DNA of 22,633 nt from a virus: IMG/VR virus record IMGVR_UViG_3300030430_000914, positions 1 to 22,633 of that record; one strand, 5' to 3'. Below are positions 1 through 22,633 of this stretch, one piece after another. Position numbers and translations under genes: made by a program. Positions within the stretch are counted from its first letter, which is position 1. Each line of letters begins with the position of its first letter. Below the pieces are notes generated by a model. The model was given only the letters and a program-made list of their open reading frames with translations, ran no database searches and was not told where the DNA came from.

Positions 1-1
1 T

Positions 2-304
2 GAAACACGAGTTCGTGACCACAAATTTGGTGACTTTCCTACTATATATTTAGCATTAAAAAAATTTATGTTTGCTAAAGATGTTATAAACAATTTTGGT
101 AAACCTTGTTTCTTTATTGTAGAATGGCTTGGTTGTGGAAGCATAGGATATGTGGACTTATCTTTAGTTGATGCTACAGCTGATGATTTTTTACATTATC
201 AAAATGTTAATTATCGTGACCAAAAAAGAGATATTGGTACAGTTGTTGAAATAAATATTGATGATTTTGTTTTAGTTGAGCATGGTTACAATGGTTTGTC
301 GTGA
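2..304 (+). CDS. 3' part of an unknown protein, possibly a PD-(D/E)XK-type nuclease
   Basis: The reading frame is open from base 2, so this gene begins upstream of the window and only its last 100 residues are seen. An internal ATG at 68 would give 78 aa, but it lacks a Shine-Dalgarno sequence and the codons before it are in keeping with the gene. The visible start has Glu-Thr-Arg-Val-Arg, then a short linker with FPTIYLALKKF, then a hydrophobic strand (CFFIVEWLG). This pattern, a strand with E-x-K/R followed by a helix and a strand, recalls small phage proteins with a restriction-endonuclease-like (PD-(D/E)XK) fold. The upstream acidic residue cannot be seen, so this is a weak inference. The stop overlaps the Mom start as TGATG, so the two are probably translated together. 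Confidence 0.6.
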   Translation, partial: ETRVRDHKFGDFPTIYLALKKFMFAKDVINNFGKPCFFIVEWLGCGSIGYVDLSLVDATADDFLHYQNVNYRDQKRDIGTVVEINIDDFVLVEHGYNGLS

Positions 305-963
305 TGAGTATGAAAAATTACTCAGTCATAGGAATTAAAAGTGAGGAAACAAAAATTTTTATATTAGATATTCATTATGCAAAACGATTACCACAAATAC
401 AATACGCATTTGGACTTTATGACAATAATGAATTAGTAGGTGTTGTAACTTATGGTTTACCACCATCACCTGACCTTTGTTTACTTGCTGGAGAAGAAAA
501 CAAAGATAAAGTTATAGAACTAAATAGACTTGTTTTAAAAAATAATAAAAAAAATGAAGCAAGTTTTTTAGTAGGTAATTCATTAAAAATGTTACCAAAA
601 CCAAAAATTGTTATTTCTTATGCTGATGTAGGACAAAACCATAATGGTTATATTTATCAAGCAACTAATTTTAAATATTCAGGGTTATCAAAGGGTGGTT
701 ATCTTTGGGTGAAAAAAGGTGTAAATGGTGTTTATAATCACGCAAGACATACAACATTAGAAAAAAGGTTAAAAAATCCTGAACTTTATGAAAGAGTTGA
801 AAGAACTGATAAACACCGATATATTTTAGTTGTTGGAAATAAAAGAGAAAAAAAAGATATTTATAGTAAAATAAAATATCCATTGGATTTACCATATCCA
901 AAAGGGGAAAGTAAATATTATGAAAATGATACTAACATAGAAACACAATTATTATTAATGTAG
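304..963 (+). CDS. mom-like: Mom-family DNA adenine modification protein
   Basis: A protein of 219 aa that I recognise as a relative of phage Mu Mom. Mom converts adenine in DNA to N6-(methylcarbamoyl)adenine and protects phage DNA from many restriction enzymes; it has a GNAT-like acyltransferase fold. Matching blocks include HYAKRLP (residues 24-30), GVVTYG (46-51), ELNRLVL (72-78), NEASFLV (84-90), SYAD (105-108), HNGYIYQATNF (113-123) and a basic C-terminal part with KHRY (170-173) and YPLDLPYPKG (192-201). I start at ATG 304, which forms a TGATG overlap with the previous stop. GTG 301 and ATG 310 are alternatives, and none has a strong Shine-Dalgarno sequence. No Mu Com-like translational activator is visible next to it. 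Family assignment is confident; the exact chemistry in this phage is inferred. Confidence 0.87.
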   Translation: MSMKNYSVIGIKSEETKIFILDIHYAKRLPQIQYAFGLYDNNELVGVVTYGLPPSPDLCLLAGEENKDKVIELNRLVLKNNKKNEASFLVGNSLKMLPKPKIVISYADVGQNHNGYIYQATNFKYSGLSKGGYLWVKKGVNGVYNHARHTTLEKRLKNPELYERVERTDKHRYILVVGNKREKKDIYSKIKYPLDLPYPKGESKYYENDTNIETQLLLM

Positions 964-972
964 GAGAAAAAA

Positions 973-1362
973 ATGGAAAAAAAATTAGCGTTTATGAATG
1001 TACCGGTAAGTGATTTAGTAAACATACAACATGATTGTGGACCGGCTGTAGCAAAGGACCTTTATATACTTTTTATTGAGTTATGGCGTAGAGATTGTGA
1101 ACCTTTACCGATAAATATTGCTCAAAAGAAACTAAAAATTAATATAAATCGACTAATAAAATGTGCAAATGATTACCCAAATTATGTAAATTTTGACGAT
1201 AATTGCATAGAAAGTGAATTTATTTTTACATTTTTTAATCAAAATTTAAGGAAGAAACAAAGTCGTGAAAATTGGAATGAAAAACGAAGAATGTTGAATA
1301 AACAACAAGATACAATAAACAGTTCAACCGATTTAAAAGCTATTATTAACAATAAAAAATAA
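973..1362 (+). CDS. Unknown 129-aa phage protein
   Basis: It starts at ATG 973 after a good Shine-Dalgarno sequence (AGGAG, 963-967), 9 nt after the Mom stop. The protein is basic toward the C-terminus and probably helical, with ELWRRDCEPLPINIAQKKL near residues 36-54 and a run of Lys/Arg/Asn at the end (roughly 93-129). The pattern of a Trp-Arg-Arg segment, then LPIN, then a small helical domain loosely recalls DUF1376/YdaU-type phage replication proteins, but the match is too weak to name it. It lies in an operon-like run with the Mom gene before it. Function not recognised. Confidence 0.7.
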   Translation: MEKKLAFMNVPVSDLVNIQHDCGPAVAKDLYILFIELWRRDCEPLPINIAQKKLKININRLIKCANDYPNYVNFDDNCIESEFIFTFFNQNLRKKQSRENWNEKRRMLNKQQDTINSSTDLKAIINNKK

Positions 1363-1374
1363 ACGCATGCGTTT
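1361..1374. repeat. 14-bp perfect palindrome at a gene end
   Basis: AAACGCATGCGTTT is perfectly self-complementary and starts inside the stop codon of the 973-1362 gene. The remaining 73 bases before the next gene are almost pure A/T, with imperfect tandem AAATTAAAT-like and AAATAAATAA-like units. The palindrome could be a protein-binding site for a regulator, and the A/T tract could bend or melt easily; both readings are inference. It has no U-run directly after it, so it is not a typical intrinsic terminator. Confidence 0.5.
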
Positions 1375-1447
1375 TCACATGAGTTTTGTAATAAATTAAA
1401 TAAATTAAATTAAACTAAATAAATAAATAATAAAAAGGTAACTAAAT

Positions 1448-1690
1448 ATGAATGAAATTAAACTTAAACTAAATGATAAACATTGGTCATTGATAAAAGA
1501 AAAAAATTTAGACTATCATCAACAAAGACGACTATTCTTTGAATGGCATAATGATAAAAAGAAAGTAAGAAAAAATTACAATTTAGCATTTTTGAATTGG
1601 CTAAAGAAAGCTGCACCAAATAAAGTTTCACAAGCTATTATGATTGATGATATAGTATCACAATTAAAAAAGGGAGATTGGGTTGGATAA
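1448..1690 (+). CDS. Unknown small protein (80 aa)
   Basis: It starts at ATG 1448 with an AAAAGG ribosome-binding sequence about 9 nt upstream. The product is basic with many aromatic residues and carries FLNWLKKA near residues 48-55. A similar W-x-x-W-[IL] helix occurs at the C-terminus of some phage replication-initiation or DnaT-like proteins, where it follows a variable linker. That is only a faint resemblance. Together with the 973-1362 gene it might represent the two halves of a replication protein split by the intergenic A/T tract, but I see no sequence proof. The end overlaps the next gene by 8 nt. Confidence 0.65.
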   Translation: MNEIKLKLNDKHWSLIKEKNLDYHQQRRLFFEWHNDKKKVRKNYNLAFLNWLKKAAPNKVSQAIMIDDIVSQLKKGDWVG

Positions 1691-2270
1691 TCAATATAAA
1701 AAAATTAACTTTAAAAACCGGTGTGATGCCATTGCCGAGATATTAATACAAAAAGGTTTACTAAGTACATATTCGCTAGGAAACAAAACACGAGAAGAAA
1801 GTGAAATGTTTATAAGAGATACAACATTATTACTAAATGAGAATATACCGAACCACGACAATATGAAAGAGTTTGAAAATTATTTAAACGATTTACGAAA
1901 GTATATTATAACAAATTTCAGTTCTGATTTTATGCCTAATACAAGTCGATTAGTAAAATTGTTGCATCAGTTTAATAAGTATCGTGATAATCAAAAATAT
2001 GCTGGTCTTGGTGAGTTGTTTAAATATGATAAATGGGAACTAGCTAAAGGCACTAACATTGCAGATAGTGGTATTATTTATAATGATAATTTTAAACAAA
2101 AATGGTTTGAGTCATTTCCAAACGAGTCACCTTTAGCTTGTAAATCTTATGTTATTCAGATACATAAAGGAACAAGGGTTTTTGGTGATTATAAACATAT
2201 AAAAAAATTAATAGACATGGGTTTACCTGTAAAACATACACTAGATAGTAAGGAACTACAGCTTGAATAA
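1683..2270 (+). CDS. Unknown 195-aa protein with TTG start
   Basis: It starts with TTG at 1683, preceded by AGGGAG (1669-1674) at a suitable distance. No ATG lies near the beginning in this frame until Met-44 (GAAATG), so TTG is well supported. The start overlaps the previous stop (TTGGATAA). The protein looks globular and probably helical in its first half (about residues 1-100), with a more mixed charged second half. No catalytic motif, membrane segment or signal peptide is visible. The layout and the downstream neighbour suggest a replication or regulatory role, but I do not recognise the family. Confidence 0.72.
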   Translation: MDNQYKKINFKNRCDAIAEILIQKGLLSTYSLGNKTREESEMFIRDTTLLLNENIPNHDNMKEFENYLNDLRKYIITNFSSDFMPNTSRLVKLLHQFNKYRDNQKYAGLGELFKYDKWELAKGTNIADSGIIYNDNFKQKWFESFPNESPLACKSYVIQIHKGTRVFGDYKHIKKLIDMGLPVKHTLDSKELQLE

Positions 2271-2742
2271 AGTAACACCAACAAAAGAACAGATTAGAAA
2301 AACCGATAATATTTATGTATTAGAAGAAACTATAAAAGCCGGAATACGCAGACTAAGAAATCGTGGTTCAACTGTTTACGATAGATATTATGCAAGAAAT
2401 CAAATTAATGCTGATATGCACAATGCAGCAACCTTATATTATACACATTATTTTTTAGGACATGAACGAACATCAACCATTGTTAAGTATGGTGAACGAT
2501 TAGGTGAGGGGTCCATACCGGCATTGACTAATGGTGAATATCAAGAACATCATAGAGATATTTATAATAAAGCAAGAACACATATAAAAACATTTAATCC
2601 TAAACTTGCAACATTTATTGATGATGTCATATTGTATGATGTTGATTTAAGAACAGCTGCAAAAACAATACGACATCAACCTGAAAATGGTTATTCATTA
2701 TTTTGTGTTACACTTGAGTCTTTAGTAGATTTCTTTTTTTAA
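2263..2742 (+). CDS. Unknown 159-aa protein, possibly a phage regulator
   Basis: It starts with TTG at 2263, preceded by AAGGA (2250-2254), and overlaps the previous stop in the form TTGAATAA, copying the junction just upstream. The N-terminal 60 residues are basic (IKAGIRRLRNRG). The C-terminal part, with ARTHIKTFNPKL, then a hydrophobic Asp-rich helix, then a pattern ending SLFCVTLESLVDFFF, resembles the layout of a family of phage DNA-binding/regulatory domains (DUF6456-like, or late-gene antiterminator-like proteins). This is inferred from pattern only. Being the last gene of the rightward run before a convergent island, a regulator would fit. Confidence 0.68.
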   Translation: MNKVTPTKEQIRKTDNIYVLEETIKAGIRRLRNRGSTVYDRYYARNQINADMHNAATLYYTHYFLGHERTSTIVKYGERLGEGSIPALTNGEYQEHHRDIYNKARTHIKTFNPKLATFIDDVILYDVDLRTAAKTIRHQPENGYSLFCVTLESLVDFFF

Positions 2743-2755
2743 TGGTCCTTATGGA

Positions 2756-2801
2756 TTAGTATAGAAAAGGACATACAAGAATAATCCCCAACCTATACTA
2801 A
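2756..2801. repeat. 9-bp inverted repeat between convergent genes
   Basis: TTAGTATAG (2756-2764) is repeated in inverted form as CTATACTAA (2793-2801) with a 28-nt spacer. GG and CC (2753-2754 and 2803-2804) extend the symmetry across one mismatch. It lies in the 98-bp gap between the end of the rightward run and the end of the leftward pair. A bidirectional transcription end is possible, although no U-run follows either arm directly. A second weak dyad (CAATTAAA at 2826-2833 and TTTAATTG at 2844-2851) overlaps the end of the leftward gene. Confidence 0.45.
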
Positions 2802-2840
2802 ACCACATGAACGCAAATAAAAATTCAATTAAAAAGTTTT

Positions 2841-3074
2841 TCATTTAATTGCCTTATACTTTTCATCAAAGAACTTATTTCTATCATCAGCATCTTCAAA
2901 ATCATTTATAAAGTAATTTAGCTTTTCTGATTTATCCAAAACTGTAGTTCTTATTTCCCAACCTTTTTCAAATTCATCACCTATCATACGCATTAAAGTA
3001 TAAAAATCAGTATAATCTCCAAAAGCATGGTATCTAGTTAATATTTTTATATAGTCTTGTTTAGTATGTTTCAT
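2841..3074 (-). CDS. Unknown small protein (77 aa), leftward
   Basis: The start ATG at 3074 has an excellent Shine-Dalgarno sequence (GGGAG, 7 nt away) that overlaps the end of the neighbouring leftward gene, so the two form a mini-operon. The product is acidic and aromatic-rich, with a Tyr/Phe-rich helix near residues 8-30 (YIKILTRYHAFGDYTDFY) and an Asp-rich C-terminus. No known domain is recognised. Its reversed direction relative to all other genes suggests it is expressed under separate control, for example early in infection. Confidence 0.72.
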   Translation of the reverse strand: MKHTKQDYIKILTRYHAFGDYTDFYTLMRMIGDEFEKGWEIRTTVLDKSEKLNYFINDFEDADDRNKFFDEKYKAIK

Positions 3075-3076
3075 TT

Positions 3077-3400
3077 TTATCTCCCTCTTCTTAAATAGTC
3101 TGGACCATAGATTCTATTTCTTTTAATTTCGTAACCATCATTAACATTGCCTCTTGGGTGTTTAGCAGGTCTTGACCATGTAGCTGCTTTATAGATGTGA
3201 CCATCTTTATCTACAAAACCCCAAGCAGAAGCTGGTTTACCATGTGCATTAGTTGTAACAATTTTTATGTATTTTTTACCAACTACATAATCAAAACTGT
3301 CTTGGCTTTTTTCCCATTGTCTTTTGTGTTCTTCTTTTAAGTCACTCACAAGAACATCAATGTTTTTAATTAGATTTTTGTTTTCTAGTATGTTTGTCAT
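3077..3400 (-). CDS. Small phage protein of the DUF7717-like type, leftward
   Basis: I place the start at ATG 3400 (107 aa) because GGAG lies 6-7 nt upstream of it; the in-frame ATG at 3412 would put that same ribosome-binding site inside the coding region. The first half is a charged helix (residues 1-38). The second half has GKKYIKIVTT followed by SAWGFVDKDGHIYKAATWSRPAKHPRGN, a block I associate with small proteins found in many marine phages (DUF7717-like), where GFV-K and W-x-x-PAK-x-x-RGN are conserved. Their function is unknown. It is the first gene of the leftward pair, downstream of a good promoter. Confidence 0.75.
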   Translation of the reverse strand: MTNILENKNLIKNIDVLVSDLKEEHKRQWEKSQDSFDYVVGKKYIKIVTTNAHGKPASAWGFVDKDGHIYKAATWSRPAKHPRGNVNDGYEIKRNRIYGPDYLRRGR

Positions 3401-3436
3401 TTTTATCTCCATTTTTTTAACTAACTTACATTTATA

Positions 3437-3465
3437 TATATAGTACTATTGACATATAAAGTCAA
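3437..3465 (-). promoter_or_regulatory. Leftward sigma70-type promoter with dyad
   Basis: Read leftward there is TTGACT (3465-3460), a 17-nt spacer, then TATATA (3442-3437), close to the sigma70 consensus and about 37 nt before the start of the leftward pair. The -35 lies inside a perfect dyad, TTGAC-N7-GTCAA (3449-3465), whose other arm reads TTGACA rightward. A factor bound at the dyad could therefore control the leftward promoter, and perhaps a rightward one. Confidence 0.6.
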
Positions 3466-3503
3466 TACTTTTTATTAAAAAAAAACAATTAATTTACATT
3501 TTT

Positions 3504-3533
3504 TTGACAAAATTAAATAAGTTGTGATACATA
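3504..3533 (+). promoter_or_regulatory. Rightward promoter candidate ahead of the packaging genes
   Basis: A consensus TTGACA (3504-3509) is followed after 17-18 nt by ATACAT/TACATA (3527-3533), which is a weaker -10. It lies 68 nt before the start of the putative small terminase gene. A second TTGACA at 3449 with TTATTA at 3472 is another, weaker rightward option. Confidence 0.45.
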
Positions 3534-3600
3534 TAAAACAATGGTTTAGGTATTTAATTAATTATAAAAGGGTGTGACAAGACACAAAGGGTCAAAAATC

Positions 3601-3984
3601 ATGGATTTTGAAACAAAACAAGAACAAAACGAGAACAAAACAAGAATAAAGAGAGGTAGAGGTCGCCCAAAGGGTAGTTTAACTAACAAACCTCGTAAGG
3701 CTGCTTATGACATCATTAAAAGACAATTTAATTACGCCTTAAGTGATATGGAGAAAGACCCAGACAAACCATTACATAAGATAATAAAAGATGCTCTAAC
3801 GAAAGATATACGAGACATAAGACATTTTGCTTTTTTATTTCCACAACAAAAGCAAACTGATATAGATGTTAAATTAGTTAAGACAATAAATGTAGTATCG
3901 GACCGGATAAGAGATTACAAAGAAGAAAGAAAAATAGCTAAAGCAAAGACAATAGATGTGACCCCAACAAAAATAGAGGAGTGA
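3601..3984 (+). CDS. Putative terminase small subunit, with AT-hook-like motif
   Basis: I choose ATG 3601 because AAAGGG (3586-3591) sits 9 nt upstream; the GTG at 3574 has its purine run too close. The protein (127 aa) has a strongly basic N-terminal tract with RGRGRPKGS (about residues 18-26), which matches the AT-hook core R-G-R-P that binds the minor groove of A/T-rich DNA. The GRPKGS-x-x-N sequence is also common at the start of phage small terminase subunits and other DNA-binding proteins. A helical, lysine-rich remainder follows. Position just upstream of the large terminase supports a small terminase that recognises packaging DNA, but sequence proof is limited. A general DNA-binding regulator is the alternative. 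Confidence 0.6.
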   Translation: MDFETKQEQNENKTRIKRGRGRPKGSLTNKPRKAAYDIIKRQFNYALSDMEKDPDKPLHKIIKDALTKDIRDIRHFAFLFPQQKQTDIDVKLVKTINVVSDRIRDYKEERKIAKAKTIDVTPTKIEE

Positions 3985-4173
3985 CCTTAATACAACATAT
4001 AAGTTACACATTTTACACCCCCCCTGTTTTTTGTGTCGCCCCCTAGTAGTAATAATAATTATACCCCTACCTATACCGAAAAAAAAAATTATTTTTTTTC
4101 CGACAATTTTCGTTTCTCAATAGTTATATATGTAGAAGATAAAAAATTTTTTTTATCATAATTGGAGAATACA
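3985..4173. other. Non-coding A/T-rich stretch with C-runs and A/T hairpins
   Basis: I see no gene here. Two C-runs (4018-4024 and 4039-4043) stand out in the A/T background. They are followed by a hairpin of ten A, TTA and eight T flanked by G and C (4078-4100), and a second perfect A/T dyad (GATAAAAAA, 4138-4146, with its inverse at 4149-4157). The stretch could hold a promoter for the small gene at 4174 or a binding site for the AT-hook protein encoded just upstream. Both readings are inference. Confidence 0.5.
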
Positions 4174-4311
4174 ATGTTACATATAGATAGAATAAAAATA
4201 TATCAAAAATTTATGGATGAACCAGAAAATTTAACTGATAATGAGTATGATGTATTAGATATGTTTGATGCAGAGTTTCAAAAATGGTTAGAAAATACAT
4301 ATAACATATAA
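4174..4311 (+). CDS. Small unknown protein (45 aa)
   Basis: ATG 4174 follows TTGGAG with about 7 nt spacing, a strong ribosome-binding site. The 45-residue product (MLHIDRIKIYQKFMDEP at its start) is acidic in the second half (MFDAEFQKWLE near residues 30-40) and probably one or two helices. It stands alone between A/T hairpins and an intrinsic terminator, so it appears to have its own transcription unit. No function recognised. Confidence 0.65.
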   Translation: MLHIDRIKIYQKFMDEPENLTDNEYDVLDMFDAEFQKWLENTYNI

Positions 4312-4315
4312 AAAA

Positions 4316-4348
4316 AGGGGGTATCACAACCCCCTAATTTTATTTTAT
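4316..4348 (+). terminator. Intrinsic terminator
   Basis: AGGGGGT (4316-4322), loop ATCACA, ACCCCCT (4329-4335) form a perfect 7-bp, G/C-rich stem followed by AATTTTATTTTAT. It begins 5 nt after the stop of the 45-codon gene and separates it from the large terminase. Confidence 0.85.
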
Positions 4349-4361
4349 ACTACATATAGTG

Positions 4362-4532: not shown

Positions 4533-5930
4533 ATGGAAGATTTAGAAAACATTATTTCAGAATTAGCGACAGACCCTGTTATGTTTGTTGAGGCAATGTT
4601 GGGTGTCAAGCCTGAAAAATGGCAGCGTAAATTTTTACAAAATGTTATGGATAATCCAAGATGTGCTGTAAAATCTGGTCATGGTGTTGGTAAGACAGCA
4701 GTATTATCATGGCTCATTTTATGGTGGTTAATTACTCGTCACCCATGTAAGGTTGTCTGTACAGCCAATACTGCTCATCAATTATCAGATGTATTATGGG
4801 CAGAAGCAAAAAAATGGGGTCGTCAACTACCTGATGTGTTTTATCAACAACTTGAAATGAAAACAGATAAAATTAATTTAGAGGGGGCGAATGATAGTTA
4901 CGCTGTGGCTCGTGTGTCAAGGCGTGAAAACCCAGAAGCTCTACAAGGTTTTCATAGTGAAAATTTATTATTTATCATTGACGAAGCAAGTGGTGTTGAC
5001 GATATGATTTTTGAGGTTGGTGAGGGTTCACTTTCTACACCTAATGCTAAGGTTGTAATGACCGGTAACCCAACACGCACAAGTGGGTATTTCTTTAATG
5101 CTTTTTCAGCAATGCGTGATAGGTGGACCTTACAAACTGTTGCCTGCAAAGACAGTACACAAGTGTCACCAGATTATATAGAAGATATGAAATTAAAATA
5201 TGGTGATGATTCTAATGTTTATCGTGTGCGTGTCTTGGGTGAGTTTCCTCGTGCAGAAGATGATACAGTTATACCATTATATATGGTTGAAAGTTCATTA
5301 CAAAGAGATGTGCAAGTTGACCCCTACACACCTGTTGTTTGGGGGTTAGATGTCGCCAATTTTGGTAGTGACAGAACCGCCTTATGTAAAAGGCGTGGCA
5401 ATGAAGTTGTTGACAAAATACGAACATGGCAAGGAAAAGACCTAATGGAAACTGTTGGTATGGTTGTACAAGAGTATGAAATGTGTAATTACAAAGATAA
5501 ACCAACAGATATTTTTGTTGATACTATTGGAATTGGTAGTGGTGTATGTTCAAGATTAACAGAACTTGATTTACCTGCTAGACCTATACAAGTAAGTGAA
5601 AGCCCTAGTATGCGTGACAAGTATATGCGTTTGCGTGACGAATTATGGTTTCGTGCTAGAGAATGGTTTGAGGGTCGTGATGTTTTTCTTATACAAGATG
5701 ACAAACTTATTGAAGAATTAATTGCACCTCGTTTTAAAATAACAAGTGCTGGAAAAATAAAAGTTGAAGCAAAAGATGAATTTAAGAAAAGATTAGGTGG
5801 TCGTTCTTGTGATTTAGCTGATGCGTTTTGTTTAACATTTGCACATCAATCATTTGTTGCAAGTGTTCGAGGCACACAACATAATTGGAATAAACCAATA
5901 GCATATAAGGATAACTCATGGATAACATAA
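4533..5930 (+). CDS. terL: Terminase large subunit (ATPase-nuclease)
   Basis: The motor that cuts and pumps DNA into the prohead through the portal. With the start at ATG 4533 (465 aa) the domains are clear. The N-terminal ATPase has Walker A GHGVGKT (residues 49-55), Walker B LLFIIDEAS (145-153) with catalytic Glu-151, and a coupling motif TGNPT (177-181). The C-terminal RNase H-like nuclease has acidic residues in WGLDVANFGSDRT (Asp-273), IFVDTIGIGSG (Asp-330) and CDLADAF (Asp-427/Asp-430). I reject an upstream extension to TTG 4407: its 42 codons cover the palindrome and stem-loop, have atypical composition, and family members start near this ATG. An AGG at 4524-4526 serves as a modest ribosome-binding site. 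The end overlaps the next gene by 13 nt. Confidence 0.95.
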   Translation: MEDLENIISELATDPVMFVEAMLGVKPEKWQRKFLQNVMDNPRCAVKSGHGVGKTAVLSWLILWWLITRHPCKVVCTANTAHQLSDVLWAEAKKWGRQLPDVFYQQLEMKTDKINLEGANDSYAVARVSRRENPEALQGFHSENLLFIIDEASGVDDMIFEVGEGSLSTPNAKVVMTGNPTRTSGYFFNAFSAMRDRWTLQTVACKDSTQVSPDYIEDMKLKYGDDSNVYRVRVLGEFPRAEDDTVIPLYMVESSLQRDVQVDPYTPVVWGLDVANFGSDRTALCKRRGNEVVDKIRTWQGKDLMETVGMVVQEYEMCNYKDKPTDIFVDTIGIGSGVCSRLTELDLPARPIQVSESPSMRDKYMRLRDELWFRAREWFEGRDVFLIQDDKLIEELIAPRFKITSAGKIKVEAKDEFKKRLGGRSCDLADAFCLTFAHQSFVASVRGTQHNWNKPIAYKDNSWIT

Positions 5931-6426: not shown

Positions 6427-8433
6427 ATGAATGAACTAGAGTTTCAAGCTCTTGTGCGTAATGAAATAGAAAACGCATTAGGGTTTTATGATAGTGAGTA
6501 TGGTATAGACCGGATTCGTGCTATGGATTACTATATGGGCGAAAAGTTTGGTAACGAACAAGAGGGGCGTTCTCAAGTTGTAACGACAGAAGTTGCCGAT
6601 ACCATAGAATTTATCATGCCAAGCCTGATGCGTACTTTTACACAGACAGATAATTATGTTGAGTTTGTGCCACGACAAGAGGAAGATGTGGAGGGTGCAA
6701 AACAAGCAACATCATACGCAAATTATGTTATTAACTGTCAAAATAATGGTTTTGTTATTTTACACAACTTTTTTAAAGACGCATTACTGCAAAAACTTGG
6801 TGTAGTAAAAGTCTATTATGACGAAACAGAAAAAGTAGAAGAAGAAACATATACAAACTTATCAGATGATGAATTAACTTTATTGTTACAAGATGATAGT
6901 ATTGAAATTGTTGAACAAAAAACCTTAGATTTACAATCAGAAGAAATTGATGAAATGGGTACACCTATCATGGAAGATTATATCAGACATGATGTTACCA
7001 TAAAAAGAACCATGTATGATGGTATGATACGAGTTGACAACATACCACCTGAAGAATTTTTAGTAAACAAAAGGGCTGCATCAATAGATGAAGCTGATTT
7101 TGTTGCACATAGAACAACAATGAAAGTAACTGATTTAGTACAAATGGGTTATGACCGAGAAACAGTTGAACGCTATGCTGGTTATACAGAATTAGATTTT
7201 GACCAAGAGGTACAAAATCGTTTTGAAGATGTTGAGTCTGGTTCTGACACCGATACCTCTGATATGTCAATGCGTGATGTGTTAGTTACAGAAGCATATA
7301 TTCGTGCTGATTATGATGGTGATGGTATTGCAGAGTTACGCAGAGTTGTTGCACTAGGGTCCGGTTTTGAAATAGTTGAAAACGATACTTTTGACCATAT
7401 ACCTTTTGCGTGTTTATCACCAATACTTATGCCACATAGATTAGTAGGTCGTAGTTTAGCAGAACTAATTATGGATATACAGATGATAAAATCAACTGTT
7501 ATGCGTCAATTATTAGATAATATTTATTTAACAAATAATGTTAGAGTTGCAGCTGTAGAGGGTCAGGTTAATATTGATGATTTGTTAAACTCAAGAGCTG
7601 GTGGTATTGTGCGTGTTCGTCAAGCTAATGCCTTACAACCATTGCAACCACAACTTATCGGTCAAAACGCATTTAGTTTGTTACAATATCTTGACAGTTT
7701 AAAAGAACAAAGAACAGGATTATCAAAAGCATCAATGGGTTTAGATGCTGATGCTTTACAAAGTACAACAGCAACCGCAGTTGCAGCCCAAATGTCAGCA
7801 GCACAAGGCAAAATAGAAATGATTGCTCGTGTTTTTGCCGAAACAGGCGTGAAAGACTTATTTCAATTAATTTTAACACTTTGTTTACAACATGGCAAAA
7901 AAGACCAAATGATACGCTTGAATAATAAATTTGTTCCGATTGACCCTAGTAATTGGAAACATGAATACGATATTTCAGTAAATGTCGGATTAGGTAGTGG
8001 TCAAACTAACGAAAAAATGGCATTTTTAAATACGATTGCACAAAAACAAGAACAAATATTATTGCAAACAGGTATAAACAATCCATTAGTTAGTTTACAA
8101 CAGTATCGTAATACTCTTGCTGAACTTGCAGGTATGGCAGGATTTAAAGATGCGTCAAGATTCTTTAAAAATCCAGAAGATACACCACCACAACCACAAC
8201 AACCTCCACCACCAAGCGAGGCTGAAATGAAGATGCAATTTGAACAGCAAAAATTACAGGCAGAACTTGAGCTACAAAAACAAAAACAAGACGCAGAATT
8301 AGCTTTAAAACGAGAAGAATTGCAAATGAAAATGCAAATACGACAAGAAGAATTACGCTATGAGGCACAATTAAGAGGATTTGAACAACAATTAGGTGGT
8401 GAACCATCTACAAACTTACCAAGAGCTGAATAA
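6427..8433 (+). CDS. Portal protein (P22-like head-tail connector)
   Basis: The portal forms the dodecameric ring at the unique capsid vertex through which DNA enters and leaves. The 668-aa length and the N-terminal pattern fit the P22-type portal superfamily widespread in marine podoviruses: YYMGEK at residues 35-40, EGRSQVV at 46-52, then a run of conserved positions VADTIEFIMPSLMRTF (56-71) and KDALLQKLGVVKVYY (117-131). The middle carries the stem and clip region. Near residues 575-592 there is a Pro/Gln-rich linker, followed by a long Gln/Glu/Lys coiled-coil (about 595-650), like the barrel of P22 gp1. The start at ATG 6427 follows AAGG. Its stop overlaps the next start as TAATG. Confidence 0.93.
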   Translation: MNELEFQALVRNEIENALGFYDSEYGIDRIRAMDYYMGEKFGNEQEGRSQVVTTEVADTIEFIMPSLMRTFTQTDNYVEFVPRQEEDVEGAKQATSYANYVINCQNNGFVILHNFFKDALLQKLGVVKVYYDETEKVEEETYTNLSDDELTLLLQDDSIEIVEQKTLDLQSEEIDEMGTPIMEDYIRHDVTIKRTMYDGMIRVDNIPPEEFLVNKRAASIDEADFVAHRTTMKVTDLVQMGYDRETVERYAGYTELDFDQEVQNRFEDVESGSDTDTSDMSMRDVLVTEAYIRADYDGDGIAELRRVVALGSGFEIVENDTFDHIPFACLSPILMPHRLVGRSLAELIMDIQMIKSTVMRQLLDNIYLTNNVRVAAVEGQVNIDDLLNSRAGGIVRVRQANALQPLQPQLIGQNAFSLLQYLDSLKEQRTGLSKASMGLDADALQSTTATAVAAQMSAAQGKIEMIARVFAETGVKDLFQLILTLCLQHGKKDQMIRLNNKFVPIDPSNWKHEYDISVNVGLGSGQTNEKMAFLNTIAQKQEQILLQTGINNPLVSLQQYRNTLAELAGMAGFKDASRFFKNPEDTPPQPQQPPPPSEAEMKMQFEQQKLQAELELQKQKQDAELALKREELQMKMQIRQEELRYEAQLRGFEQQLGGEPSTNLPRAE

Positions 8434-12047: not shown

Positions 12048-12995
12048 ATGGCAACTTTTAAAACCGCAAATGCAATCGGTGAAAGAGAAGATTTGTCTGA
12101 TGTAATTACTCGAATTGACCCAGCTGAAACACCAATTTTCAGTAACGCCAAAAAAATTACATCAAGTGGTGTATTCCACGAATGGCAAGTTCAAGAATTA
12201 GCCGCAGCTGCAGATGACAATTATGTTAATGAGGGTGCTGACTATTCTTATGTCAACCCAACAGCAACTACAAGACTTGGTAATTATCACCAAATCTCAG
12301 TACAAGCTGCATCAGTATCAGGAACACTTGATGTTGTTGATAAAGCTGGTCGTGACAAAGAAACAGCTTATGTGAAAGTTCTAAAAGGACTTGAACAGCG
12401 TAGAGATATTGAAAAATCACTATGTAAAAACGAAGCAAGAGTAGCTTCACCAGAACCAAGAAAAACAGGTAAAATTAGTTCATTTATGACTAATGTTTCA
12501 CTTGTTTCTCCAAGTACAACACCAACAGGTGATGGTACTGATGTTTCTGACAAAGCTGGTACTAACGCTGCCCTTACATTAGCAAAAATTGATGCTGCAA
12601 TGAAACTAGCTTATGATGATGGCGGACAGCCAGATATGCTAGTTGTATCACCTGCTAACAAAGTAGCATTTAGTGATTTATCTTCTGGTTCAGTTGCAAC
12701 TGCACAGTTACAATATTCTGCACCAAGAGATATTGCTATCATTGGTAGTGTATCACTATATCTTACTGATTTTGGTGAGCTTAGTGTCACTATCAGCAGA
12801 CAAATGCTAAATGATACAATATTCCTATTAGATTCTGACCACTATTCTATTGGTGCATTACCTAATAGATTATTTTCTGTATCAGATGTAGCACCTACAG
12901 GTGACGCTACAAAATTTGCTATCGTCAGCGAGTATGTTTATGTGCCAACAGCACCTAAAGCACACGCTATGGTAACAGATTTAAATACATCTTAG
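12048..12995 (+). CDS. Major capsid protein, SU10/DUF5309 family (HK97 fold)
   Basis: The main shell protein, 315 aa. The N-terminal signature of the SU10-type capsid family is present: EREDLSDVITRIDPAETP (residues 12-29), HEWQVQEL (44-51) and NEGADY (61-66). The rest alternates strands and helices in a way consistent with the HK97 fold (inferred). There is no sign of a protease-cleaved propeptide and no N-terminal scaffold domain, in agreement with the separate scaffold gene just upstream. ATG 12048 follows AAAGGAG with about 7 nt spacing. A strong stem-loop follows the stop, common after highly expressed capsid genes. Codon choice is somewhat richer in G/C than in neighbouring genes, typical of high expression. 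Confidence 0.93.
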   Translation: MATFKTANAIGEREDLSDVITRIDPAETPIFSNAKKITSSGVFHEWQVQELAAAADDNYVNEGADYSYVNPTATTRLGNYHQISVQAASVSGTLDVVDKAGRDKETAYVKVLKGLEQRRDIEKSLCKNEARVASPEPRKTGKISSFMTNVSLVSPSTTPTGDGTDVSDKAGTNAALTLAKIDAAMKLAYDDGGQPDMLVVSPANKVAFSDLSSGSVATAQLQYSAPRDIAIIGSVSLYLTDFGELSVTISRQMLNDTIFLLDSDHYSIGALPNRLFSVSDVAPTGDATKFAIVSEYVYVPTAPKAHAMVTDLNTS

Positions 12996-13045: not shown

Positions 13046-13366
13046 ATGAAAAAAATTATAGGATATGACCCTGTACAGAAAAAAACTACATATTTTCATG
13101 GGGGTTCTGATGGTCAACATCATGTAACAGTTGAACAAGAAACTGAACATATTATAAAAAAAGCAAAAGAATTAGATATAGATTACAAACCATACGATAT
13201 TGTTGGTACACAAAAACACATGAGGCAAGTTGCAGAACTACCTGCTAATCTATATTTTGAATTAACAAAAAAACTTGGTGAACCAAAACATAACAAAAAG
13301 GCATGGGCTAGATGGCTAAATGACCCTGACAACAAATTTTTTAGAACAGGTGGTGGTAATATATAA
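13046..13366 (+). CDS. Small head-completion or tail-region protein (106 aa), family unknown
   Basis: It starts at ATG 13046 after AGGA with 6 nt spacing. The visible pattern is an N-terminal YDPVQKKTTYFHGG, a charged helix in the middle (TEHIIKKAKELDI), VAELPANLYFEL (about residues 67-78) and a C-terminal WLNDPDNKFFRTGGG (90-104). Short proteins with the same kind of W-L-N-D-P-x-N-x-x-F-R-T ending lie between capsid and adaptor genes in other phages, so a head-completion or connector role is likely. I know of no proven function. Its stop overlaps the next start as TAATG. Confidence 0.72.
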   Translation: MKKIIGYDPVQKKTTYFHGGSDGQHHVTVEQETEHIIKKAKELDIDYKPYDIVGTQKHMRQVAELPANLYFELTKKLGEPKHNKKAWARWLNDPDNKFFRTGGGNI

Positions 13367-13992
13367 TGTCAATTACAACATATTCAGAACTAAAAACACA
13401 AATAGCTAATTTTTTGGCAAGAGATGATTTAACATCACAAATAGATACATTTATTGACCTTGCTGAGTCAAGAATTAGTCGTGAATTAGAATCACGCTCT
13501 CAAGATACACGCACAACTCTAACAACAACACCTGACAATGCCTATGTATCATTACCAACAGATATGCGTACAATTCGTAATGTTAAAGTAATGAACAATC
13601 CAAGAATTACATTAAGGTATTTGTCACCATTACAAGTAAAAAAAGAATTTGCTACAACAGGTACAGGATTACCACGAGTGTATAGTGTAATTGGTGATAA
13701 TTTGTTTTTAGCACCTATACCAGATACAGCATACAATATAGAATTGACTTATAAAGCGTCTGTAAGCTCTCTGAGTGACAGTAATACATCAAATACTATA
13801 TTGACTCGTTATCCTGATTTATACCTCTATGCGAGCTTATTTCACGCTTACACATACCTTTTAGATGAACAAAGAGCTACACAATACGAAGCCTTAATAC
13901 AATCAATACTACAACAAATACGAGTTGACGAAGAAAAAGGCAGCTATGGTGTTGGTTTAGAGATGAGAAGTGTATATGGAGAATTTACCTAA
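13366..13992 (+). CDS. Head-to-tail adaptor protein (SU10/P22 gp4-like)
   Basis: The adaptor ring attaches to the portal and carries the short tail. The 208-aa protein has the typical N-terminal helix-rich start ITTYSELKTQIANFLARDD, then LAESRISRELESR (about residues 32-44), a strand segment with LPTDMRTIRNV (58-68), a further strand block around GDNLFLAPIPDTAYNIELTY (109-128), and a C-terminal helical part with RYPDLYLYASLFHAYTYL. This order matches the adaptor family of P22-like and SU10-like phages. It overlaps the previous stop and the next start by TAATG, so three genes are translationally linked. Confidence 0.87.
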   Translation: MSITTYSELKTQIANFLARDDLTSQIDTFIDLAESRISRELESRSQDTRTTLTTTPDNAYVSLPTDMRTIRNVKVMNNPRITLRYLSPLQVKKEFATTGTGLPRVYSVIGDNLFLAPIPDTAYNIELTYKASVSSLSDSNTSNTILTRYPDLYLYASLFHAYTYLLDEQRATQYEALIQSILQQIRVDEEKGSYGVGLEMRSVYGEFT

Positions 13993-15461
13993 TGTTAAAT
14001 TTTGGTGAATGGTTACCGGACCAACCAGATAATACATCTGGTGTAACAACAGCAAAAAATGTTATACCTGCAGCAAGAGGGTATCGTGGTTTACAAGATT
14101 TATCACAATATAGTAATGCTGCTGATAATAGATTAAGAGGTATATTTGCTGCTAAAGACGATAGTGGTGACCCAAAAATATTTGCAGGTGATGTTACAAA
14201 ATTATATGAGTTTACAAAATCAAACTCTAACTTAACAAATATATCAAAAGCAGGTAATTACACATCATTGGGTAATGAAGATATATGGAAGTTTATTGAC
14301 TTTAGTGGTTTTGTTATCGGTGCATCAGGGCATAATAATATATTGCAAGTCTATGATAATGGTACAAGTTCTGCTTTTGCTGACATATCCGGTAGTCCTG
14401 CAGCTAAACATATAGCAGTTGTTGGTGACTTTGTATTTACAGGTAATGTAAAATATGGTGGCACAGTCTATCCTAATCGTGTGTATTTTTCATCACTTGC
14501 ATCACATACAGGTTGGACTATAGGCACAGACCAATCTGATATACAAGATATATTTGATATGGGTGATATTACAGGTATTGTTGGTGGAGAATATGCAACG
14601 ATATTATGTGAAAGAGGTATAGTGCGTGGTTCGTATGTTGGTACACCATTTATATTTCAATTTGATAAAGTACAAACAGGTTTTGGTTGTAACTATCCAA
14701 ATTCAGTAGCAAATGTTGGTGAGACAATTTTTTACTTATCAGATGATGGTTTTTATCAATTTGATGGGCAAAGAAGCACACCTATAGGGGCAGAAAAAGT
14801 AAATCGTTTTTTCTTTGATGATTTTACAATACGAAACAAGGGTAGAATATCTACTGCGGTTGACCCTACAGAACAAATTGTCGTTTGGTCATATACATCA
14901 GGTAGTTCAAATGATGATACACCGGACAGATTATTAATATATAATTATGCGTTACGAAGATGGTCGTATGCAGAATTAGATTGTGAACTTATATCACCAT
15001 TTATGACAATAAATTACACATTAGAAGAATTAGATAGTATTAGTACATCATTAGATGGTTTACCTGCATCACTTGACTCATCTATCTATATAGGTGGTCA
15101 ATTTATATTTGGTGGTGCTAAAGATAAAAAATTACATACATTTAGTGGTATTAACAAACAAGCATTAATAGAAACTGCTGATTTAGATACAGGTAATGGT
15201 CGGACAAGTGTTATTACTAATGTCATACCCTATGTAGAAATTGTTGGTGGTACATCACCATCAGTAACAGCACAAGTGTCATCAAGAAATAGACAAGTTG
15301 ATGAAGATAGTTTTGGTACAGAAAGCACATTAAATACAGATGGATATTGTAATGTTAGGTCAAATCAAGGTAGGTATCATAAGATAAGACTGAATGTATC
15401 AGGTACATGGAAATATATACAAGGTGTAGAGATAGAGGCAAAAACAACAGGTAAACGATAA
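13992..15461 (+). CDS. Tail hub / DNA-stabilisation protein (P22 gp10-like)
   Basis: In P22-like phages this protein forms the tail hub below the adaptor, closes the capsid and carries the tailspikes or fibres. The 489-aa protein begins FGEWLPDQPD (residues 4-13) and continues with repeated strands typical of a beta-propeller hub: ARGYRGL, KIFAGDVTKLYEF, IWKFIDFSGFVIGASG, GDFVFTGN, and NRVYFSSLASHTGWTIG. The block ILCERGIVRGSYVGTPFIFQFDKVQ and then FYLSDDGFYQFDG are characteristic of this family. There is no transmembrane segment. The start overlaps the adaptor stop (TAATG), and its end overlaps the following small gene in the same way. Confidence 0.87.
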   Translation: MLNFGEWLPDQPDNTSGVTTAKNVIPAARGYRGLQDLSQYSNAADNRLRGIFAAKDDSGDPKIFAGDVTKLYEFTKSNSNLTNISKAGNYTSLGNEDIWKFIDFSGFVIGASGHNNILQVYDNGTSSAFADISGSPAAKHIAVVGDFVFTGNVKYGGTVYPNRVYFSSLASHTGWTIGTDQSDIQDIFDMGDITGIVGGEYATILCERGIVRGSYVGTPFIFQFDKVQTGFGCNYPNSVANVGETIFYLSDDGFYQFDGQRSTPIGAEKVNRFFFDDFTIRNKGRISTAVDPTEQIVVWSYTSGSSNDDTPDRLLIYNYALRRWSYAELDCELISPFMTINYTLEELDSISTSLDGLPASLDSSIYIGGQFIFGGAKDKKLHTFSGINKQALIETADLDTGNGRTSVITNVIPYVEIVGGTSPSVTAQVSSRNRQVDEDSFGTESTLNTDGYCNVRSNQGRYHKIRLNVSGTWKYIQGVEIEAKTTGKR

Positions 15462-18020: not shown

Positions 18021-19592
18021 ATGGCGGATAGTTTAGAATTAAAAAAGAAAAAATTAGCTTTAAAAAGAAAAAGAGAAGCAGAGGCACAAAACAACAAAAA
18101 CAATAGATTTTTAGATAGGGATTTTGTTCGTAGTGCTGTTGGTCAAGGTTTGTTTTTTGGCTATGGTGATGAAATTGAAGCAAAAATTCGTTCTATGATT
18201 GGTAAGAAAAGCTATGAGGAACTTTTGCCTGAAATTAGAGCTGCTTTAAAGGCGTATGAACAGGATTTTCCTATTCAATCACTTACTAATGAGGTTATTG
18301 GTTCTATTCCATCAGGAATATTGTTAACATTAGGCACAAGCGGATTAGCAACTCCGGTTGTTGCAGGAACAAGATTAGCAACACTTGCTAATAAAGCAAA
18401 ACCATTTTTACAGGCTATGGGATTAGCTGGTTTATATGGTAGTGGTAAAGAAGAGGGTGATGTAATTGAAAAAATAAAAACAGGTGCAAAAACAGCACCA
18501 TTTGGATTAGTTTTATACCCAATTCAAAGGTTGGCTGGTAGCAAACCTGCACAAGCATTAAAAAACAAATTAAACTTAACGATAGGTCAAAAGATTGGTG
18601 GTACTGCAAAAAGATTTGAAGAAATTTTAAAATCAGTACCAATATTAGGTGAAACAATAAGAAAGCGTGAACAAGATGTTCTTCAACAAATGAATGTCAA
18701 TATTTATGACAGAGTTTTAAAAAATATTGGTAAAAAATTAGACAAAAACAAAGTAGGACATGAAGCCTTTGATGAGGCTGATGGTTTTATTCGAGATGCT
18801 TATAAAGAAATTATACCAAAATTAAAATTAGATGAAACTAGCATACAAACATTAATAACCAAAATTAAAGCTATTGGTTCAGATGATTTAAATATATCAA
18901 CAGATGTTGGAGAAGATTTTATAAAAAAAACAACTAATTTAATTAATAACAATATAACTAAATCAAGTCTTAATAAAAACGCAAGAAATATATCAGGTCA
19001 AAATTTAAAAAATTTAGAAAGCAAGTTAAGTCAAAATATTAGCAAGGGTATAAAAAGCCCAGACGCTGCAGTAAGAGAAAATGCTTTTCGATTACAAAAA
19101 GTAAGAAATGAACTTACAAAATTAATGGAAAATAATAATCCTAAATATGCAGATAAATTAAAAAAAATAAATTTAACATTTCGTCAATTTTTACCGATTG
19201 GAAACGCTGTTAGTTCATCAGTTAAAAATGATGGTGTATTTACAACAGGTCAATTAATTACAGGAATAAGACAAACTTCGCCAAAAAGAGATTTAAGACG
19301 AGGAAGCGGTGGTGCTGGTTTACAAAAAGAAGCCCAACAATATCATTCTGTTTTAAAAAATGTTGTACCTGATAGTGGTACACCAGAAAGGGGTTTAGGA
19401 CTAGCAGGATTAGGTGGTGCAGCATATTTTACTGACCCTGTTACAGTTGGTACAGCATTAGGGGCTGGTACAGCTTTGTACACAAAAGGTGGTCAACGAA
19501 TCGCTGACATAGTTACAGATAAATTAAGTTTGTTAGGTACATCAGGTGGACTAGCAAATGTTACAAGAGAACAAACAGGCTTATTAGATTAG
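18021..19592 (+). CDS. Internal virion / DNA-ejection protein (523 aa)
   Basis: It starts at ATG 18021, 2 nt after the previous stop, with no clear Shine-Dalgarno sequence, so translation is likely coupled. The N-terminus is a basic helix (ELKKKKLALKRKREAEAQ, residues 5-22). Next comes GLFFGYGDEIEAKIRSM (about 43-59) and YEELLPEIRAALKAYEQDFP, a block typical of a group of phage ejection proteins. Residues 86-118 are hydrophobic Gly/Ala/Leu (IGSIPSGILLTLGTSGLATP), a likely membrane-inserting stretch, with a second near 453-480. A role in crossing the host inner membrane during genome entry fits (compare P22 gp16/gp20, T7 gp15/16), by inference. Confidence 0.8.
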   Translation: MADSLELKKKKLALKRKREAEAQNNKNNRFLDRDFVRSAVGQGLFFGYGDEIEAKIRSMIGKKSYEELLPEIRAALKAYEQDFPIQSLTNEVIGSIPSGILLTLGTSGLATPVVAGTRLATLANKAKPFLQAMGLAGLYGSGKEEGDVIEKIKTGAKTAPFGLVLYPIQRLAGSKPAQALKNKLNLTIGQKIGGTAKRFEEILKSVPILGETIRKREQDVLQQMNVNIYDRVLKNIGKKLDKNKVGHEAFDEADGFIRDAYKEIIPKLKLDETSIQTLITKIKAIGSDDLNISTDVGEDFIKKTTNLINNNITKSSLNKNARNISGQNLKNLESKLSQNISKGIKSPDAAVRENAFRLQKVRNELTKLMENNNPKYADKLKKINLTFRQFLPIGNAVSSSVKNDGVFTTGQLITGIRQTSPKRDLRRGSGGAGLQKEAQQYHSVLKNVVPDSGTPERGLGLAGLGGAAYFTDPVTVGTALGAGTALYTKGGQRIADIVTDKLSLLGTSGGLANVTREQTGLLD

Positions 19593-19601
19593 GAGTATAT
19601 A

Positions 19602-22600
19602 ATGGCAAAAACAAAAATATCACAGTTTGATGCTACCGCAGCAAATAATACTGACTTAAATAGTATTAGTATTGCTGAGGGTACAGCACCATCTAATATT
19701 AACAATGCTATAAGAGAATTGATGTCACAACTTGCTGACCTAAATCTTGGTAATGAAGTTTTATCTACTCTTAAAATAGATAATTTACACCTAGATGGTA
19801 ACAGTATTGTCACTTTAGATACTAATGGTGACCTCAACCTTACGCCAAATGGTAGTGGTTCGGTTGTCGTAGCCAAAGCAGACATCAATGGTGGTGCAAT
19901 AGATGGTACACCAATAGGTGCGGCTAGTGCAAGTACAGGGGCTTTTACAACATTGTCTGCAAATTCGACTGTTGGTCTTGGCAGTAGCGTGACTATATCA
20001 GGAGGTAATATTGATGGTGTTATAGGTGCAAATACACCTGCAGCTATTACAGGCACAGTCATAACCGCTAATACAAATTTTGCTGGTAATCTTACAGGTA
20101 ATGTAACAGGTACTTTAGATGGTGTTGTAGGTGGCACAACCCCAGCTGCTGTTACAGGAACGACAATAACAGCCAATACGAAATTTGTCGGTGCAATAGA
20201 TGGTAATGTTACCGCAACAAGTGGCACATCTACATTTAATAATGTCACTATAAATGGTACATTAGATATGGATAGTACCACATCACAAACAATAACAGGT
20301 CTTGCTACACCATCTGGTTCTACAGATGCAGCAACAAAAGGTTATGTTGATACCGAAATATCTGGTTTAGTTGACTCTGCACCTGCAGCACTAAATACAT
20401 TAAACGAATTAGCTGCAGCATTAGGTGATGACGCTAGTTTCTCAACAACTGTAACTAATTCTATCGCAGCAAAATTACCACTTGCTGGTGGTACAATGAC
20501 AGGTGATATTAACGCAAATTCTAATACTGTTAGTGGATTAAAAGCACCATCATCTGCAAATGACGCAACAACAAAAACTTATGTTGATACAGCAGATGCA
20601 CTAAAACTTAATTTAAGTGGTGGTACATTATCTGGTAACCTTGCTATGGGTAGCAATAAAATAACAGGTTTAGACACACCGACTGATACTGCTGATGCTA
20701 CGACAAAAGGTTATGTTGATGGTGTATTAGGTTCTGCAACAGCTGCTGCTACATCTGCATCAAATGCTGCTACATCAGCTACAAATGCAGCGTCTAGTGC
20801 GACTGCCGCAGCGTCATCAGCAACTGCTGCTGCCTCAAGTGCTACATCAGCTGCTGCATCTTTTGACAGTTTTGACGACAGATATTTGGGTGCAAAATCA
20901 TCAGCACCTACTGTTGATAATGATGGTGATGCTTTAGTAACAGGTGCATTATATTTTAATACAACATCAAATGAATTATTTGTTAGAAATTCATCAAACG
21001 CATGGGTACAAGCTGCGTTTACTGCAAGTGGATTTTTAAGTTCTAGTAATAATTTATCAGATGTAGCAAGTGCATCAACAGCAAGAACAAATTTAGGATT
21101 AGCTATAGGTTCAAATGTGCAAGCCCATGACCCTGATTTAGATGCCCTTGCAGGACTTACCTCTGCTGCTGACAAAGGCATACAATTTACAGGTAGTGGA
21201 ACTGCAGGTACTTACGACTTAACAACAGCAGGTAAAGCCCTACTAGATGACGCAAATGCTGCAGCTCAAAGAACAACACTAGGTCTTGGTACAGTTGCAA
21301 CATTAGATGCAGGTACATCAGCAAATAATGCTGTTCAATTAGATGGCTCTGCCAAGCTACCAGCAGTTGATGGCTCAGCATTAACAAATATGGCAAGTGG
21401 TGGCAGTATAAACATGGTTGCAGATGGTGCTATTGCTATAAGAAAACCTGTCATACTTACTGCAGCAGGTAAAGCAAAAGAAGTAGCTGAAACAGGAAAT
21501 GATGTTACAGAGGGTATAGGCACAGCAAACCAATTTAATGGCACGAATGGAATTAACTATGTATCTCCTGCATTAGCTCAAGTAGCAGATGATAAAGTTG
21601 CAGTTTCATATCGAGATGCAGCTAACAGTAATTATGGTGTCGTACAAGTAGCAACAGTAGACGATTCTAACAGAACAATATCGTTTGGTACAAAAGTTGT
21701 TATTAATAGCGTTGCATCTAGGGGTGGAGGTATTGCTTTTGATACAAGCAGAAGTGTGCTTGGTGCAACTGTACAAACAGAAAGTGACCCAAAACTTATT
21801 ATAGCTAATTATACAATATCAGGCACAACACTTACAAAACAAGGTAGCACTTTAAGTTTAATGACTACAGATACTGTGTCATCACACACAACACTTTTTG
21901 ACCCAGACAACAACCATATGATGGTTTTCCTTGTGTATGAAAATGGTTCAGACCGAACATTTAGAGCGATTGCAGTAACAGGTAATGCGTCAGGCACACC
22001 AACAAGTTCTTATCTTGTTAATGTTAATGTTGATACTACTTTTTTTGATATAGGTAGTCCATTAGCTGCCACTTATGACACAAATGTTAATGCTTTTTTA
22101 GTTACATCAGAAAAAGCCGAACCATCAACATTTAGAGGTATAGTTGTAACAAATAATGGTTCTGCAATTACAGCAACAGAACGCAGTAAAACAAAGCCAA
22201 CAGAGTATTTAGATGGCGTAACATTATGTTTTGACAGTAATAATAATAAAGTAGTTATGGCATATAATACGACAACTTATTACAACCGCATAGTAAATAT
22301 AACTATGACTACTAATGATTTTACTTTAGGTACACCGACATCAGTTACATCACTTGGTACAGGTTCAACAAGCTCTGTATCTCGAGGGTTTTTGTCTTTT
22401 GACCCAACAGCTCAAAGAATTGTATTGTTGAGAGGTGGTGGAAGTGCTGCAACCTCAAGATGGGCAGTATTTTCCAATGATGGTTCAGACTTTACACAAC
22501 AATCAACAGGTGTCTGGGATTCCTCAACAAATAATTTTGCTCAAAGAGGTGGTATTTTACAAACAGCAATGACAACGAATATGAATAGCAACCCAATACC

Positions 22601-22633
22601 AATAATTATGAATAATGGTAATACAGGATATGG
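19602..22633 (+). CDS. Tail fibre, N-terminal 1010 residues (runs off the window)
   Basis: The reading frame starts at ATG 19602 (AGGAG, 6 nt upstream) and stays open to the last base, so the gene continues beyond the window. The layout is mosaic. A short N-terminal head (MAKTKISQFDA) is followed by Gly/Thr/Asn-rich beta repeats, then three TGL-x-x-P...DAxTKxYVD repeats (20292-20720). Next is an Ala/Ser/Thr-rich coiled stretch (20737-20860), then a DDRYLGAKSSAP...GALYFNTTSNELF...W block. After a LGLGTVATLDAGTSANN linker (about 21280-21330) comes a C-terminal region with repeated strand blocks such as ADDKVAVSYRD and FDPDNNHMMVFLVY, looking like a beta-propeller (21570 on). These features are typical of marine phage tail fibres; the receptor is unknown. 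Confidence 0.92.
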   Translation, partial: MAKTKISQFDATAANNTDLNSISIAEGTAPSNINNAIRELMSQLADLNLGNEVLSTLKIDNLHLDGNSIVTLDTNGDLNLTPNGSGSVVVAKADINGGAIDGTPIGAASASTGAFTTLSANSTVGLGSSVTISGGNIDGVIGANTPAAITGTVITANTNFAGNLTGNVTGTLDGVVGGTTPAAVTGTTITANTKFVGAIDGNVTATSGTSTFNNVTINGTLDMDSTTSQTITGLATPSGSTDAATKGYVDTEISGLVDSAPAALNTLNELAAALGDDASFSTTVTNSIAAKLPLAGGTMTGDINANSNTVSGLKAPSSANDATTKTYVDTADALKLNLSGGTLSGNLAMGSNKITGLDTPTDTADATTKGYVDGVLGSATAAATSASNAATSATNAASSATAAASSATAAASSATSAAASFDSFDDRYLGAKSSAPTVDNDGDALVTGALYFNTTSNELFVRNSSNAWVQAAFTASGFLSSSNNLSDVASASTARTNLGLAIGSNVQAHDPDLDALAGLTSAADKGIQFTGSGTAGTYDLTTAGKALLDDANAAAQRTTLGLGTVATLDAGTSANNAVQLDGSAKLPAVDGSALTNMASGGSINMVADGAIAIRKPVILTAAGKAKEVAETGNDVTEGIGTANQFNGTNGINYVSPALAQVADDKVAVSYRDAANSNYGVVQVATVDDSNRTISFGTKVVINSVASRGGGIAFDTSRSVLGATVQTESDPKLIIANYTISGTTLTKQGSTLSLMTTDTVSSHTTLFDPDNNHMMVFLVYENGSDRTFRAIAVTGNASGTPTSSYLVNVNVDTTFFDIGSPLAATYDTNVNAFLVTSEKAEPSTFRGIVVTNNGSAITATERSKTKPTEYLDGVTLCFDSNNNKVVMAYNTTTYYNRIVNITMTTNDFTLGTPTSVTSLGTGSTSSVSRGFLSFDPTAQRIVLLRGGGSAATSRWAVFSNDGSDFTQQSTGVWDSSTNNFAQRGGILQTAMTTNMNSNPIPIIMNNGNTGY
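20292..20720 (+). repeat. Three tail-fibre repeats ending in KGYVD or KTYVD
   Basis: The 20-residue unit I/V-[TS]-G-L-x-x-P-x-x-x-x-D-A-[AT]-T-K-x-Y-V-D occurs at 20292-20351, 20529-20588 and 20661-20720, separated by 237 and 132 bases. Such units are the phage-fibre repeat family seen in many tail fibres; they build an elongated trimeric shaft. The spacings are multiples of three, in agreement with their coding role. Confidence 0.8.

Follow-up and report, generated by a model that had tools for sequence, protein, structure and literature searches.

Gene content and identity of the phage

The window, meaning the whole stretch of viral DNA analysed here (22,633 bases), carries a Mom-family DNA-modification gene followed by terminase and head genes, all on the positive strand. 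The Mom-family gene (301..963, 220 aa) matches Pfam PF25680 (E 1.4e-33; 116.7 bits, cut-off 27.1) and PHROG 1384 'Mom-like DNA modification protein' (E 1.9e-55). Its product is known from sequence as a member of the family of phage Mu Mom and has 44-45% identity to Listeria phage proteins, the 45% match being annotated 'DNA modification protein'. The large terminase (TerL, Terminase_6N) lies at 4536..5930, its start placed by alignment with relatives; a terminase scan of IMG/VR returned 80 loci at 55-92% identity. An SU10-type podovirus head module is confirmed by the portal protein at 6427..8433 (PF23899, E 5e-219), the major capsid protein at 12048..12995 (PF17236, E 1e-67) and the adaptor protein at 13366..13992 (PF24175, E 1e-35). 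A stabilization/nozzle-like structural protein follows at 13992..15461, 39% identical to that of Methylophilales phage Venkman and 35% to that of Pelagibacter phage HTVC106P. The nearest named relatives are C72C1 (48-57%), and HTVC106P and Venkman (35-45%, portal and stabilization proteins).

A search of 17 relatives, including two of 34-38 kb, gave no integrase-family match; the window and most of the records are fragments. The phage is very probably a marine podovirus with SU10-type head genes and, as part of the same overall reading, would be lytic. As clues to the host, tRNA genes were sought and none was found, and a search of genomes for prophages gave distant terminase relatives only, the best at 60% on a contig of 8 kb.

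Absence of GATC

GATC does not occur in the window, as a sequence-only reading had claimed; the exact count is 0 in 22,633 bases. Dinucleotide-preserving shuffles of the window give an expectation of 36.7 +/- 6.0, and shuffling synonymous codons of the coding sequence with the proteins fixed gives 51.3 +/- 5.2, with a minimum of 37 in 300 shuffles. A Markov comparison, proposed in that same reading, puts the expectation at 56.6 (maximal-order estimate; z = -9.0). ATC itself is not depleted, since AATC (89), CATC (87) and TATC (101) are all common; these 277 occurrences agree with the earlier observation that ATC is frequent after A, T and C, and its contexts are not equally depleted. GANTC, previously put at about two dozen, was counted 28 times against 40 +/- 6 expected, a mild depletion. 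All window counts cover this one 22.6 kb metagenomic genome fragment of 33% GC.

Other words missing from the window

The absence had also been described as specific to the GATC palindrome, and this part does not hold. ACGT is likewise absent (z = -9.2), with 37-54 expected across the Markov, shuffle and codon-shuffle nulls, and many other words are gone. Over the entire window (1..22633) the count is zero for GATC, ACGT, ACGG/CCGT, CCCG/CGGG, GCGC, GGCC and CGCG, and among longer words for CACTG/CAGTG, ACTGG, CCTTC, CCNGG (CCAGG included), CATCG, GAAGAC, CAATTG, ATGCAT and AAGCTT; CATCC/GGATG occurs once. Elimination was defined as an observed/expected ratio below 0.1 with an expected count above 15, a range into which the window falls for GATC (0/57), ACGT (0/38), CASTG (0/32), ACTGG (0/29), CCNGG (0/21), CCTTC (0/20), CATCC (1/19) and CATCG (0/16). 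For CCAGG the codon null expects just 1.5 copies, so its elimination is judged from the Markov expectation and from relatives. Words such as CATG, flagged by Markov statistics, were excluded where the codon null showed no depletion (for CATG, 35 copies against 36 expected). Some words are over-represented, namely GCWGC (67 vs 30) and CTGCAG (14 vs about 3-9).

The window is AT-rich and metagenome-derived, which would suit an origin of these absences in its base composition, in codon usage or in faulty assembly. The Markov, shuffle and codon-shuffle nulls each exclude the composition and codon account. Seven 4-mers (reverse complements collapsed) are absent from the coding part of the window vs none in codon-shuffled copies, and 45 5-mers vs 2. 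AT-rich controls, among them phage 44AHJD and gut loci whose GC content is 27-30%, are almost free of elimination, which together with the three nulls rules out composition and codon usage as the cause of the missing words. The pattern, moreover, is repeated in relatives from many separate IMG/VR records. The probability left to this explanation as a whole is practically nil.

Correspondence with restriction specificities

The missing words are preferentially real Type II restriction specificities, asymmetric ones included. Among non-palindromic 5-mers, 6 of 58 REBASE words are eliminated in the window vs 0 of 379 others (p 4e-6), and all six are known specificities: BsrI, TspRI, FokI-type CATCC, CdiI, CCWGG and HpyAV-type CCTTC. 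For plain, non-redundant (non-nested) words the figures are 13/92 for REBASE and 11/1287 for non-REBASE words (p 3e-10). Among 281 testable REBASE sites no longer than 8 bases, 34 are eliminated, many of them nested and about twenty independent.

ACGG is lost in every left-hand and right-hand context of the window and corresponds to no listed 4-base site. With its complement CCGT, it is also gone in every context from clade A of the relatives (L002-L011). In clades B, C and D just ACCGT/ACGGT and CACGG/CCGTG are eliminated, and ACAGT/ACTGT is retained. Neither ACGG nor, in relatives, ACSGT and CACGG are among known 4-5 bp restriction sites, which counts against a restriction account. Restriction specificities that are still undescribed are nevertheless to be expected, and ACGG, ACSGT and CACGG are candidates for such specificities.

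Turnover of missing sets among relatives

The relatives split into clades with differing missing sets. Clade A lacks ACGT, ACGG and CCGG; clades B and C lack GATC and retain CCGG; and clade D has ACGT at normal levels and no CCGG. Repeating the GATC count in related phages, as the sequence-only reading had suggested, extends its finding to part of the group: besides clades B and C, branch A2 of clade A is almost GATC-free, and branch A1 retains GATC in part. CCWGG is absent from nearly all clade A-D records, and GGCC, GGWCC and CATCG are strongly depleted across these clades with few exceptions. In the pooled clades most 6-bp palindromes are strongly depleted, as are the asymmetric GAAGAC, CTCTTC, GTATCC and GAATGC. 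CCGG is enriched or retained in the window and clades B/C and absent in A and D, a pattern which indicates that avoidance of CCGG has been switched on or off within the group. Missing sets differ even among relatives whose TerL proteins are 83-92% identical, so the pressure turns over quickly.

Aligned homologous positions show the losses directly. None of 55 GATC sites in aligned A1 relatives (82.6% DNA identity) is kept in the window, as against 57-69% of control words, and none of 120 ACGT sites in clade D alignments; records share positions, and the distinct window positions number 18 for GATC (A1 coding sequence) and 36 for ACGT (clade D). The protein is unchanged in 69% of GATC losses vs 34-42% of control losses. 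Across well-populated comparisons generally, 61-83% of losses are protein-silent vs 31-55% of control losses. Turnover can also be seen to be recent from relatives G010 and G009 (89.5% DNA identity), between which ten aligned GATC sites go to zero (10/10 differ) and CATC is kept at 105 of 124 positions.

Many restriction-type words are also eliminated in three gut clostridial loci (L129, L131 and L174; terminase relatives from gut MAGs or genomes), and the strategy is thus not confined to the ocean.

Probable selection by restriction and its alternatives

The best explanation, held with high confidence, is that a lytic marine podovirus has had its genome purged of sites for many Type II restriction-modification systems, with GATC (MboI/DpnII type) among them. 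Incoming phage DNA bearing a site would be cut in a host with the cognate enzyme, and phages with fewer sites would survive better. Selection over many hosts and enzymes would then remove sites, mainly by silent changes. As the pressure turned over, which sites a sister lineage retained or lost would depend on the hosts that it met.

The earlier proposal of a host restriction system cutting GATC, or a similar host factor, holds to the extent that restriction has good support as the selecting force. One factor that cuts GATC is not enough to account for the pattern, given that these 22.6 kb have been cleared of many unrelated sites and that close relatives do not share one missing set. GATC does show the largest deficit by expected count, and no other site avoided by phages is better documented (PMC6286503), as would suit one GATC-directed host factor, either nicking of Dam/MutH type or one DpnII/MboI enzyme, with the other missing words as unrelated curiosities. 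The z-score of ACGT, however, equals that of GATC, the window is missing about twenty classes of site, and clade A1 partly keeps GATC yet lacks ACGT. Mismatch-repair nicking would not predict the loss of GGCC, CCTTC or ACTGG; Dam/MutH-directed avoidance requires confinement to GATC, which is contradicted by the absent ACGT and many unrelated words. A lone GATC-directed factor is therefore very unlikely.

DpnII matches were present in 7 of 190 sampled genomes of the class of alphaproteobacterium G047, four of them full length. Two full-length genes lie in complete operons with two methyltransferases (N6/N4 and D12) in small AT-rich alphaproteobacterial genomes, one of 1.2 Mb with 35.5% GC around the locus and one of 1.6 Mb with 33%. 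The operon of the 1.2-Mb genome (L203 7475-10057) adjoins clpX-lon, and its locus has 22 GATC vs about 51 expected from base composition. Cognate enzymes thus exist in the right kind of genome, with none linked to this phage. Enzyme families for GGCC, GCGC and CCWGG are rare in the sampled alphaproteobacteria and likewise gave no link to it. That no cognate enzyme has been matched to a host is a counterpoint to the restriction account, as is the reported lack of restriction-modification systems in SAR11 genomes (PMC9516812), should SAR11 be the host; one possible endonuclease is mentioned for HTCC1062 (PMC10504331).

SAR11 phages show multi-site elimination in spite of that reported lack, and the selecting nucleases could then belong to rival phages or mobile elements sharing the cell, acting as sequence-specific endonucleases in place of host restriction. 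A protective role of phage methylases in relation to superinfecting phage DNA has been raised (PMC10504331). Against such a source, homing-type endonucleases recognise long sites, whereas the words eliminated here are short ones that correspond to Type II specificities of bacteria. Intracellular competitors are accordingly an unlikely source of the pressure, and host Type II restriction is preferred.

Modification genes

A Mom gene turned up in 3 of 46 records (the window, G010 and G036), most records being fragments. C5 methyltransferases were found in 4 of 27 (G002, G003, G013 and G018) and N6/N4 methyltransferases in 2 of 27 (G024 and G031). This distribution suggests that modification genes are variable, as if exchangeable. 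Relative G010 also has a 2OG-Fe(II) oxygenase gene (L084 5996-6559). Judged from gene content, Mom here and the methyltransferases in relatives probably form a second, exchangeable anti-restriction layer.

Mom-type modification could further be supposed to choose the sites, those that it can protect being kept and the rest purged. The consensus of Mu Mom stood in for the target of the Mom in the window, an assumption on our part from which the real target may differ. A Mom-family gene is present inside the window, and protectable sites show a weak trend towards retention; the same trend, though, is seen in clades where Mom was not found, and several protectable sites, e.g. GAGAC, are depleted in the window and G010. 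Tested with the Mu consensus, perhaps not the target of this Mom, protection as the factor deciding which sites are kept is not supported, and its chance of being right is very slight. Phage methyltransferases were also considered as the reason for kept sites (e.g. CCGG in clades B/C), and no site-by-enzyme link emerged.

Significance

If Type II restriction is the selecting force, the words that a phage lineage avoids show which restriction enzymes it has met, even where hosts and enzymes are uncultured. With about twenty missing site classes and differing sets in sister lineages, host-defence turnover in the ocean becomes measurable from sequence alone. Tentatively, phages that infect streamlined marine bacteria (SAR11, OM43 and the host of this phage) may record a large, fast-changing Type II repertoire with undescribed specificities (ACGG; ACSGT; CACGG) that is unseen in published host genomes. 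That several cultured SAR11 phages show the same loss of many sites is at odds with the reported absence of restriction systems from SAR11, and the question becomes testable.

Comparison with known phages

Several to many Type II sites are eliminated in SAR11 phages (L183, L188, L189, L193-L196 and L201) and in an OM43 phage (L184); HTVC106P also lacks CGAG and CACG. On a list of 80 prototype sites, chosen partly after this clade had been seen, the window has 23 eliminated sites out of 61 testable, compared with 9-29 out of 65-69 for nine SAR11 phages and 23 out of 70 for Venkman. SAR116 phage HMO-2011 (11) and C72C1 (9) are intermediate, and 0-5 are eliminated in T7, SU10, KHP30, 44AHJD, Syn5, P-SSP7, SIO1, P26218 and a Microcystis phage. 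Decoy words are rarely eliminated. The unbiased comparison uses all plain REBASE words, of which 14% are eliminated in the window, 3-14% in SAR11 phages, 11% in Venkman and 0-4% in the remaining named phages; non-REBASE words are eliminated at 0-1.5% across the compared phages. On this unbiased count SAR11 phages stand out less from controls, yet still do so, with HTVC034P, HTVC100P and HTVC008M lying near the upper controls.

Elimination of restriction sites is typical of non-temperate dsDNA phages; a survey by Rusinov et al. 2018 (PMC6286503) puts it at 7.1% of the orthodox Type II phage-site pairs for which the host is known. The window resembles the phages of that survey in having almost no copies of orthodox Type II sites for which more than 15 are expected; no integrase was seen in its relatives, most of their records being fragments. 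It differs in losing that 14% share of testable non-redundant REBASE words, roughly twenty classes including asymmetric ones, within 22.6 kb. T7 and the staphylococcal phages 44AHJD and phiAGO1.3 are, like the window, GATC-poor or GATC-free, and PMC6346686 describes restriction sites as lacking or sparse in phiAGO1.3; T7 and 44AHJD, however, have three tested site classes eliminated each vs 23 in the window. Some pelagiphages are depleted in GANTC, with no cause known there (PMC9516812). There, as here, motif depletion separates related marine phages by clade, in that case with a host that has no known restriction system, but the window keeps GANTC and loses many other words, and further Type II sites are missing from several SAR11 phages in the present comparison. 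Site avoidance by phages is thus known as a phenomenon, and what is new is its breadth, the inclusion of asymmetric sites, the fast turnover and the link to SAR11.
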